Positions 6,095 to 9,595 of a stretch of DNA of 59,538 nucleotides are shown here, piece after piece. Made by a program: the position numbers and the translations under genes. Where the stretch lies: positions 1 through 59,538 of the forward strand of contig CACNWV010000008.1 in NCBI GenBank assembly GCA_902624195.1, given 5' to 3'. Every line of letters begins with the position of its first letter. Position 1 is the stretch's first letter. This stretch comes from an uncultured Pelagibacteraceae bacterium (GTDB taxonomy: Bacteria; Pseudomonadota; Alphaproteobacteria; Pelagibacterales; Pelagibacteraceae). The notes under the pieces are model-generated. The model was not told where the DNA came from, did not search any database, and saw nothing but the letters and a program-made list of their open reading frames with translations.

Positions 6095-6971
6095 TTGACT
6101 CTTGTTTAGCCTGAGCCTCAGCTTTTTTCAATAAAACATTTAATAATGTTCCAACCGTTGAATTAAGGTATTTTCTTTCAATCACCAAATCTATTCCACC
6201 GTGATCTTTAACATATTCAGCAGTTTGAAATTCATCAGGTAATGTTTCTCTTACTGTATCTTGAATTACCCTTCTACCTGCAAAACCAATTGTGGCTTTC
6301 GGCTCTGCTATTAGTATATCACCTAACATTGCCCAAGATGCTGTCACGCCACCAGTTGTTGGATCAGTTAATATTACAATGTATGGGATATTGTTTTTCT
6401 TTAATTCATTTACCGCTAAAGCAGTTCTTGACATTTGCATTAGCGCAATAGAACTTTCCATCATTCTTTGCCCACCGGAGCAACTAAAAAAAATATATGG
6501 AATTTTGTTATCTATGGAGTGTTGTATACCAGCAATAAAAGCCTCTCCGGATGCTGCACCAAATGATCCTCCTATAAATCTGAAATCTTGTGCACCCGCA
6601 ATAACTTCAATATTTTTAACTTTTCCCTTAGCTATTGCAACTGCATCATCCTGATTGGTAAGTTTTCGAGCAGATTTTAACCGATCAGAATATTTTTTCT
6701 TATCTTCAAAATTTAAAGGATCATCTTTAGGAGACGGCGTTTCAATCAATTCATATTCTTTATTATCAAAAAAAGTTTCAAATCTTTCTTTACAAGTTAG
6801 TTTATGATGGGCTCCACATTTTGGACAGCATTTTTGATTTGAGTCCATGTCTTCTTTATAAATAAGATTTTTACATCCACATGTAGTCCAAAGGTTTTCC
6901 TCTGTTTGTGAAGATTTTTTTTCAAATAGGGATTTTATTTTAGGTTTAATAAATTTTGTTATCCAATTCAT
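6057..6971 (-). CDS. accD: Acetyl-CoA carboxylase carboxyltransferase subunit beta
   Basis: Beta subunit of the acetyl-CoA carboxylase carboxyltransferase, which with AccA moves the carboxyl group from biotin to acetyl-CoA for fatty acid synthesis. A zinc-ribbon-like start has Cys31, Cys33, Cys49 and Cys52, so the first pair is CxC rather than CxxC. The crotonase-type core shows IGGSFGAASGEAF, SGGQRMMES (165-173) and TDPTTGGVTASWAMLGD. The usually invariant FAGPRVI reads FAGRRVI (from 230). Length 304 is typical. It sits between trpA (4-base overlap) and folC (38-base overlap), a common alphaproteobacterial arrangement. Confidence 0.9.
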   Translation of the reverse strand: MNWITKFIKPKIKSLFEKKSSQTEENLWTTCGCKNLIYKEDMDSNQKCCPKCGAHHKLTCKERFETFFDNKEYELIETPSPKDDPLNFEDKKKYSDRLKSARKLTNQDDAVAIAKGKVKNIEVIAGAQDFRFIGGSFGAASGEAFIAGIQHSIDNKIPYIFFSCSGGQRMMESSIALMQMSRTALAVNELKKNNIPYIVILTDPTTGGVTASWAMLGDILIAEPKATIGFAGRRVIQDTVRETLPDEFQTAEYVKDHGGIDLVIERKYLNSTVGTLLNVLLKKAEAQAKQESNVTIDKTLQSAS

Positions 6972-7768
6972 AAAATTTTTTTTTTTAGATTGTACACAAC
7001 TTTATCTAACTTTGTGACAGGATTTTGTCCCATTTTGAGTGAATTTGTTATTATTTTACACAACATACTGCCCACAACTAGTCCGTTTGCTGATTTTAAG
7101 GAAGAAATTGTTTTATCTGTAATCCCAAAACCAATTACAAGGTTTTTTTTAGGATTGATTCTTTTTATCCTATTATAATTCTCAAGTATTTTTTTTGGAG
7201 ATACTTTTAATCTTCCTCCCGTAGTAGAGAGCATAGATATATAATAAATCATTTCATGAGAATCTTTAATAATTTTTTTCATCCTATCTTTAGATGTGGT
7301 AGGAGATAAAAGTTGGATAAAAGTAATATCTCTTTTTTTACATTTTTTTGCAAAATTTTTATTTTCTGGATAGGGAAGATCCACAATTATTAGACCATCA
7401 ACTCCTGATTTTTTACAATTATTTAAAAATTTATTTTCTCCATTCTGGTAGATAAGATTAAAATAACCCATAAGAATTAGGGGTTTACTTGGATTTATTT
7501 TCTTAAATTTTTTCACAATTTGAAAAACATCTTTAAGTTTTGTTCCATTTTTTAAAGCTCGATGTGAACTTCCCTGTATCTGACCGCCATCTGCAATAGG
7601 TGTATTATGAGGAAAGCCACATTCAAGGATATCTGCATGTTTTGAAATTTTATTTAGAATTTTTAAAGAATTTTTTCTGGTATTATCTCCAGCCACAGTA
7701 TACGTAATTAAAGCAGGTCTTTTTTGCTTTTTACAATTTTCAAAAGCTAAAGCGATTTTAGACTTCAT
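6968..7768 (-). CDS. trpA: Tryptophan synthase alpha chain
   Basis: TIM-barrel subunit that cleaves indole-3-glycerol phosphate and passes indole to TrpB. The catalytic residues fall at the classic numbering: Glu49 in ILECGFP and Asp60 in IADGG. The loop between them, normally FSDP, is HNTP, so the beta-contacting Asp56 is a Thr. The phosphate-side motif GFGITDKT and a loop-6-like STTGG are present. Length 266 is normal. It overlaps trpB and accD by 4 bases each, implying one transcript. Function is very likely kept, with an altered interface to TrpB. Confidence 0.9.
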   Translation of the reverse strand: MKSKIALAFENCKKQKRPALITYTVAGDNTRKNSLKILNKISKHADILECGFPHNTPIADGGQIQGSSHRALKNGTKLKDVFQIVKKFKKINPSKPLILMGYFNLIYQNGENKFLNNCKKSGVDGLIIVDLPYPENKNFAKKCKKRDITFIQLLSPTTSKDRMKKIIKDSHEMIYYISMLSTTGGRLKVSPKKILENYNRIKRINPKKNLVIGFGITDKTISSLKSANGLVVGSMLCKIITNSLKMGQNPVTKLDKVVYNLKKKIL

Positions 7769-8997
7769 CTCACGTATGAACCTAATTTTTGTTTAATAAT
7801 ATCTTTATCTTTTAGACTATCTCCACAAGAATTAACAATGATAACCTCAGATGATTTTAATCTAGGCGCTAATTTAATTGCTTCAGCAAAAGCATGTGAA
7901 GGCTCAAGCGATGGAGAAATATTTTCAAGTTTTGAAACTAATTGATAAGCCTTAAGAGCTTCCTCATCACTCGCAGAAGTGTATGAAGCTCTTTTTGTGT
8001 CCTTTAGAAAACAATGTAAACTAGAAATTCCAGGGTAGTCCAAACCCGCTGAAATTGACTCTGTTCTTCCTATTTGTCCTTCGTTATCTTGAATTACATA
8101 CTGAGCTGAGCCATGAAGTATACCAATCTTTGAACCATTTGTTAATGGGGCAGCATGTAATTTACTATTCTTTGGACCACCAGCTTCAATACCGATAAAT
8201 TCTGCATCTGTATCCATAAATTCATTCCAAAATCCCATAGCTGAGCTACCACCTCCAACGCAATTAAGGAGTTTCATTTTTTTTGGAATTTTTCCGAATT
8301 CCTCTTTTACTTGACTCATCAACTCTCTGGAAATTTGAGCCGTACTCCAAGCGCAAATTTTTACAAAAATATTTGGACCCACCGTTGAACCAACACACAT
8401 ATGTGTTGTATCACAATTAGCAACCCAATAACGCATACACTCACTTACTGCATCAACAAGAGTTTGACTTCCAGTGGTAACAGGTACTATCTCTGCTCCA
8501 TTTTTTCTCATAGATTCAACATTAGGTCTTTGCCTCTTAATATCTTTTGCTCCCATAAAAATTTTACACTTCAAACCAAATTTCTTAGCAGCCATTGAAA
8601 GCATCTTTCCTGCATATCCAGCTCCAGTGTCTCCAACGATAAATTTTTTACCAGCTTTTCTTGCTATCAAACAATGTACCGTAGCATTATAAATTTTGTG
8701 AGCTCCACCGTTAGCCTCAGATACTACTTTTGCATAAATTTGAGCACCTCCAAGATGATCTGTTAAGTTATCTAGTTTTATAAAAGGGGTAGGAGCTCCT
8801 ACATAAGTTTTGAAGTAAAAATCTCTCTCTTTAATAAATTTCTTATTTTTTCTTAGTTTATTAAATAACTTTGTTAAATCATCAATAGGTTTTTTCAAAG
8901 TTTCAGGAATAAAATTTCCTCCAAATTTACCACCATACATAAAGTTTTTATCGTGTTGATCAATAAGTGGAATACCTTTTTTAATTTTTAAGCTCAT
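7765..8997 (-). CDS. trpB: Tryptophan synthase beta chain, divergent active-site motifs
   Basis: PLP enzyme that condenses indole with serine. The PLP lysine is Lys101 in GGAHKIYN, the phosphate loop is GGGSSA (248-253), and SISAGLDYPG and LEPSHA are retained. Several near-invariant TrpB features are changed. KREDLxHxGxHK reads KVVSEANGGAHK. ETGAGQHG reads DTGAGYAG, placing Asp123 where the catalytic glutamate (Glu109 in Salmonella) should be. The cofactor-ring serine region reads NSCGDSLKD. The length of 410 and the position between trpF and trpA fit TrpB, not another fold-type II enzyme. The start overlaps trpF by 17 bases. Confidence 0.88.
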   Translation of the reverse strand: MSLKIKKGIPLIDQHDKNFMYGGKFGGNFIPETLKKPIDDLTKLFNKLRKNKKFIKERDFYFKTYVGAPTPFIKLDNLTDHLGGAQIYAKVVSEANGGAHKIYNATVHCLIARKAGKKFIVGDTGAGYAGKMLSMAAKKFGLKCKIFMGAKDIKRQRPNVESMRKNGAEIVPVTTGSQTLVDAVSECMRYWVANCDTTHMCVGSTVGPNIFVKICAWSTAQISRELMSQVKEEFGKIPKKMKLLNCVGGGSSAMGFWNEFMDTDAEFIGIEAGGPKNSKLHAAPLTNGSKIGILHGSAQYVIQDNEGQIGRTESISAGLDYPGISSLHCFLKDTKRASYTSASDEEALKAYQLVSKLENISPSLEPSHAFAEAIKLAPRLKSSEVIIVNSCGDSLKDKDIIKQKLGSYVR

Positions 8998-9595
8998 TTA
9001 GTTTTGTTATAAATTTTTTTATTTTTCGATGATCTTTGTACCCTAATTGATTATCTGATTCCAAGCTACTCGACAAATCATAAAAATTAACTCCTAATTT
9101 TGCAATATTTTCAATGTTGTCATGAGAGACTGAACCCGCGAGAGCGTATCTTTCTCCTTTAGGAAGTTTTGAGATTAAATTTTTTGGAAATTCAATAGAT
9201 TTCTCCATACCTGGTGTATCAAATAAAATTATATCAGCATCTTTATATTTTTTGAAATTTTTAATGTCTGTCTCTTCTTTGATCTTAATGGCTTTAATAA
9301 CTTTAAGACCCATTGTTTTCAATTCTTGAATTCTTTCATTAGTTTCTGAGCCATGTAACTGAATATAATCAAAATTTTTTAAAACAATATTTTTAATAAA
9401 TTCATTATTGGCATCTACAGTAACAGCGACAAATAGCGAGTCTTTTTTATTATAATCTTTTAATTTCTTAATTTCTTCTAAATTAACATTTCTAGGAGAC
9501 TTTTTGTAAAAGACAAAACCTAAAAAATTTACCTTTAAATCAATGGCAAGCTGCACATCTCTGACTGGATTTAAGCCACAAATTTTCACTTTCAT
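8981..9595 (-). CDS. trpF: Phosphoribosylanthranilate isomerase
   Basis: Amadori-type isomerase of tryptophan biosynthesis, a small TIM barrel of 204 residues. The catalytic cysteine lies in VKICGLNPVRD at the N-terminus, GFVFYKKSPRNV follows, QLHG is mid-protein, and the catalytic aspartate lies in ILFDTPG. The phosphate loops are altered: LSGG is LAGS and DVSSGVE is DLSSSLE. It is the first trp gene of the cluster, 1 base after pyrF on the same strand, so pyrF and the trp genes probably share a transcript. Confidence 0.9.
   Translation of the reverse strand: MKVKICGLNPVRDVQLAIDLKVNFLGFVFYKKSPRNVNLEEIKKLKDYNKKDSLFVAVTVDANNEFIKNIVLKNFDYIQLHGSETNERIQELKTMGLKVIKAIKIKEETDIKNFKKYKDADIILFDTPGMEKSIEFPKNLISKLPKGERYALAGSVSHDNIENIAKLGVNFYDLSSSLESDNQLGYKDHRKIKKFITKLNELKN

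Follow-up and report, generated by a model that had tools for sequence, protein, structure and literature searches.

Can a tryptophan synthase β subunit (TrpB) in which several near-invariant catalytic residues are changed still be a tryptophan synthase? The question is raised by a stretch of 59,538 nucleotides, here called the window, from an uncultured Pelagibacteraceae bacterium (contig CACNWV010000008.1 of assembly GCA_902624195.1), a member of SAR11, the ocean's commonest bacteria and among the most numerous cells on Earth. Its trpB lies at positions 7765–8997 of the reverse strand, on which all features given below are encoded. A first-pass annotation, made from the DNA letters, proposed either that the lineage has a re-tuned β reaction or that the enzyme has shifted substrate while the α subunit, TrpA, is kept. 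Judged from sequence, we put the probability at about 0.9 that this gene, beside which no other trpB was found in the genome, encodes a genuine TrpB β subunit, belonging to a SAR11-specific branch of TrpB1 and forming an α2β2 complex with the adjacent TrpA. TrpA has diverged together with TrpB, and the pair is swapped as a unit. The most surprising result comes from sister species, where 14 trpB alleles carry an extra base in the catalytic loop, which is probably a programmed +1 frameshift.

A SAR11 branch of TrpB

The trpB open reading frame (ORF) of the window is intact, with an ATG start and no internal stop, and encodes 410 amino acids. Alignment with seven canonical alphaproteobacterial TrpB proteins, with Salmonella residue numbers transferred via conserved motifs, confirms the substitutions listed in the first-pass annotation, with one correction and two additions. 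KVVSE (residues 90–94; 8716–8730) replaces KR[ED][DE]L, its V, V and S being found in 72, 81 and 78 of 81 window-type genes at positions where canonical Alphaproteobacteria have R-D-E. The lysine that binds pyridoxal phosphate (PLP), Lys101 (8695–8697) in the motif GGAHK, is kept in all 81, and SISAGLDYPG is also present. The catalytic loop reads DTGAGYAG (residues 123–130; 8608–8631), with Asp at Glu109, Tyr at Gln114 and Ala at His115. SCGDSLKD (residues 390–397; 7807–7830), which replaces LCGRGDKD, had been called unusual as a whole; the change of RGD to DSL is indeed SAR11-type, but the Cys at Ser377 is ordinary, being found in 7/7 other Alphaproteobacteria and in canonical SAR11 TrpBs. 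Two changes were absent from the original list, namely Val181 (8455–8457) at the position of Lys167, and the segment GSTVGPNIFVKICAWST (residues 203–219; 8341–8391) in place of G[ST]..GPHPYP..VR[DE]FQ, in which ICAWST stands for VR[DE]FQ.

What is retained is equally clear, and here the first reading holds for fold, PLP lysine and phosphate loop alike. The GGGSxA loop is kept as GGGSSA at residues 248–253, and so, in window-type TrpB, is the pair Arg141 and Asp305, by which the Salmonella active site closes (PMC9512447). The AlphaFold2 model (predicted local distance difference test, pLDDT, 93.6) matches PfTrpB in a Foldseek comparison with a root-mean-square deviation of 1.3 Å and template modelling scores of 0.90/0.96, and the closest match in the PDB is the reconstructed LBCA-TrpB (4e-102). 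The protein clears the TIGR00263 cut-off for trpB by a margin of 0.65 bits (393.1 vs 392.45, over profile positions 4–383 of 385), and several SAR11 relatives score under it. Membership of TrpB2, a comparison suggested at the outset, is rejected by a TIGR01415 score of 95.5 against the curated cut-off of 518.85 bits.

Homologues with 62–95% identity occur in most SAR11 genomes sampled. Across the order, the carboxylate at position 109, the catalytic Glu of studied enzymes, is present as Asp in all 81 full window-type genes aligned, and VGDTGAGYAG is found in 80/80 named Pelagibacteraceae loci, mostly from single-cell genomes. Because they occur SAR11-wide, the substitutions are lineage-typical, and the suggestion of a re-tuned β reaction finds support as a condition of the whole lineage. 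Among the genomes sampled, 289 at class level and 299 at phylum level, no window-type TrpB was seen outside SAR11; the best match outside the order is a canonical TrpB with 46% identity.

TrpA and TrpB as an exchangeable pair

The neighbouring trpA (6968–7768; 266 amino acids; TIGR00262 209 bits, Trp_syntA 224 bits) encodes a partner α subunit of a divergent type that matches the TrpB. It keeps Glu49 and Asp60 and has Thr at the interface position of Asp56 (7601–7603). In the Salmonella complex TrpB Lys167 pairs with TrpA Asp56 in an intersubunit salt bridge. The two positions co-vary over sequence types: Lys–Asp in canonical pairs, Lys–Glu in two types, Val or Ile with Thr, Cys or Ala in the window type, and Leu with Thr in the ETGAFQN and ETGASMN types. 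Position 167 is V or I in 81/81 window-type TrpB, and TrpA position 56 is T, C or A in 66/66 TrpA paired with them, the latter being D or E wherever the partner TrpB retains Lys.

In several SAR11 genomes another trpBA pair occupies the place of the window-type pair between conserved neighbours, as in genome G057, where identity to the window is 70% for trpF and 72% for accD but 32% for trpB and 29% for trpA. This replacement in place implies equivalent function, and together with the co-variation it argues for TrpA and TrpB working as a single matched complex, which is exchanged as one unit.

The locus itself is compact, trpB overlapping both trpA and trpF (8981–9595; matched by phosphoribosylanthranilate isomerase models). 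At the pyrF-(trpF)-X-X-accD site at least five other trpBA types were seen, ESGAG[QA]H, ETGASMN, ETGAFQN, ETGAGAHL and canonical (loci L060, L069, L070, L072, L078–L081 and L054–L059), so that trpBA appears as an exchangeable core-metabolism pair in SAR11 genomes. Three loci, L073, L081 and L082 (genomes G150, G005 and G007), gave no trpF match between pyrF and trpB, the only place where it was looked for.

Substrate and mechanism

The alternative is a PLP enzyme that descends from TrpB but has taken up a new substrate, working outside tryptophan synthesis beside a conserved TrpA. Several changed near-invariant catalytic residues and a TIGR00263 score barely over the cut-off would fit such an enzyme, but its TrpA is co-diverged, not conserved, and a changed substrate is hard to reconcile with in-place trpBA replacement and co-variation. 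A second trpB was searched for and none was found in the genome, a draft of 37 contigs that is 89% complete, where the sole other fold-type II paralogue reads as a cysteine synthase. To judge by trpD, found in 14/14 genus genomes of 90% completeness or more, the genus retains the rest of the tryptophan pathway, and HTCC1062 is prototrophic. We therefore consider a new substrate very improbable. That the window gene is decaying or a sequencing artefact, for which the draft state of the assembly might speak, is refuted by the recurrence of the same residues in unrelated, independent assemblies (81 window-type genes, 80 named loci), which leaves neither chance nor sequencing error as an explanation. 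A ratio of non-synonymous to synonymous polymorphism (pN/pS) of about 0.10 within the genus also speaks against it.

The case of HTCC1062 deserves attention, since the first-pass annotation asked whether well-studied prototrophic SAR11 strains share these residues. Passages of a study from 2008 on trp genes in the Sargasso Sea (the 2008 survey) describe a separate cluster, trpB_1, that surrounds HTCC1062 and has the same gene order, and argue that the divergent trpB must work, since HTCC1062 has one trpB (PMC2395257). Artificial seawater to which glycine, glycine betaine, pyruvate and dimethylsulfoniopropionate are added supports growth of the strain, tryptophan not being listed (PMC5069961). 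HTCC1062 is a tryptophan prototroph whose single trpB belongs to the divergent cluster, and the residues in question are SAR11-wide, which goes most of the way to a yes.

Some points weigh against a genuine tryptophan synthase. The HTCC1062 trpB, sought by name, was absent from the 80 named loci returned and its sequence was not retrieved; trpD was not found in the window's genome at its 89% completeness; and no kinetics or assay for any enzyme of the SAR11 branch was found in the literature. According to the title of Brzovic et al. 1992, the Salmonella enzyme changes in substrate specificity and in activity when Asp replaces Glu109, and by analogy the natural enzyme could be slow or accept other nucleophiles. 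Because the same substitution has this effect in Salmonella, the changes that surround it in SAR11 are probably compensatory.

Canonical Glu109 stabilises the charge on indole N1 during carbon–carbon bond formation (PMC9512447). In the SAR11 synthase Asp123 would take over this role, Tyr and Ala in place of Gln114 and His115 together with the ICAWST segment may adapt the pocket to the shorter carboxylate, and the subunits would meet in a non-ionic contact instead of the Lys167–Asp56 bridge. The tryptophan synthase of SAR11 departs from the textbook enzyme, with Asp for the catalytic Glu throughout and the salt bridge gone on both sides; it offers a natural test of ideas about allostery and the design of active sites, and gives TrpB engineering a new scaffold from which to start.

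Frameshifted trpB alleles

An extra base within the DTGAG codons of trpB was found in 14 of 169 same-genus genomes (6 of the first 61), and none was seen in other genera of the family. In these FRAMESHIFTED relatives (loci L104–L117) one base is added after the Thr codon, GTG GGG GAT ACC [A/C] GGC GC, the insertion being A in 13 and C in 1. It falls within codons 119–125, in the invariant context GTGGGGGATACC[A/C]GGCGC. This stretch has the lowest synonymous diversity of the frameshifted genes (0.022 vs a mean of 0.40); intact trpB genes vary normally at the same synonymous sites. No second trpB was found in the 14 genomes. Residues 117–119 are LR[EQ] in every frameshifted allele and KK[FY] in most intact ones, a difference that replaces a lysine nearly invariant in TrpB.

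The surroundings of the break resemble in part those of a programmed frameshift. A Shine-Dalgarno-like GTGGGGGAT precedes it in 14/14 alleles, and a 3' end of 16S rRNA with the matching anti-Shine-Dalgarno, ACCTCCTT with CCTCC, was found in 6 of the 14 genomes and in that of the window. The last in-frame codon, ACC, is not evidently slippery, and the A-site codon is AGG (13) or CGG (1), both rare in the window's ORFs (4.4 and 0.33 per 1000 codons). If the ribosome slipped after ACC, the exact sequence IVGDT-GAGYAG would be restored; this site is favoured because slippage on GGGG would yield IVG-IP-GAG, with loss of the Asp. A stimulatory RNA fold finds no evidence, since none of 37 predicted pairs around the shift has a compensatory change, and the element had no match in viral contigs. 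Descent of the frameshifted alleles as one clade is rejected by an approximately unbiased test (p 3e-5, with the site itself left out), so the patch has either been exchanged between backgrounds or been kept as an old polymorphism.

Could trpB instead have become a pair of genes, the downstream one initiating at a TTG in AGATTGTGG, whose polypeptides assemble? The TTG is there in the second frame of 13 of the 14 alleles, and purifying selection acts on both halves. The remaining allele, L117 (genome G430), has ATC in place of the TTG and no ATG, GTG or TTG before the second frame, but its second half is intact; a split would also cut the catalytic loop, and the conservation spans the whole GTGGGGGATACC[A/C]GGC element, beyond any start codon. 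Such a fission seems to us unlikely. We give similarly little credence to the idea that the gene is a pseudogene in these relatives and that the strains need external tryptophan. One base does break the frame, and none of the 14 genomes is more than 90% complete. Yet at a synonymous divergence (dS) of about 1.3–1.6 the alleles show pN/pS of 0.09 ahead of the break and 0.10 behind it, values like those of intact genes. No stretch of the gene is more conserved at synonymous positions than the broken site, trpA comes next in every locus examined, and at least 7 of the 14 genomes keep trpD.

On balance we lean towards the reading that the sole trpB of 14 of 169 genomes is translated via a programmed +1 frameshift in the catalytic loop, at a prfB-like arrangement of GGGGG, ACC and a rare Arg codon, and that the frameshifting and the ordinary version of the patch would have been exchanged among trpB backgrounds, both persisting, on top of a synthase that naturally carries Asp for Glu109. 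Against this stand the draft state of all 14 genomes, each less than 90% complete; the estimates of selection, which were computed on sequences read as shifted with dS near saturation; and evidence that comes from DNA sequence, not from protein. No literature on frameshifting in SAR11 trpB was found in the library searched. If true, the active site itself would hold a programmed frameshift, a rare thing for a biosynthetic enzyme of bacteria, and automatic annotation would label such a trpB as broken and its strains as tryptophan auxotrophs.

Comparison with known systems

A close precedent for the window gene is the SAR11-like trpB_1 cluster of the 2008 survey (PMC2395257), the consulted passages of which do not mention active-site residues, TrpA co-divergence, pair replacement or frameshifted alleles. 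The cluster was already noticed; the new detail is the Asp109 site, the coupled change at the interface and the replacement of the pair.

With TrpB1 (TIGR00263; Salmonella, P. furiosus, LBCA-TrpB) the window TrpB shares the fold, the PLP lysine, the GGGSxA loop, Arg141/Asp305 and linkage to trpA, and it is 42–46% identical to the nearest canonical members. It differs in Asp for Glu109, Ala for His115, Tyr for Gln114 and Val for Lys167, and further in KVVSE for KR[ED]xL, ICAWST for VR[DE]FQ and DSL for RGD; in its partner TrpA, Thr replaces Asp56. The Glu109Asp mutant of Salmonella TrpB named in the title of Brzovic et al. 1992 has the same substitution at the catalytic carboxylate, but it is a laboratory mutant in an otherwise canonical site, whereas the Asp of SAR11 is natural and comes with many accompanying changes.

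For the frameshifted alleles the closest parallel is the programmed +1 frameshift of prfB, where a Shine-Dalgarno-like run lies 3 nt before the last in-frame codon (PMC12421855). The trpB alleles resemble it in the GGGGG run, which here lies 2 nt before that codon, in the +1 direction and in having a conserved element. They differ from prfB in carrying a rare Arg codon, AGG or CGG, at the shift in place of a stop codon, in an ACC that would re-pair poorly in the new frame, and in the position of the site, mid-gene in a biosynthetic enzyme.
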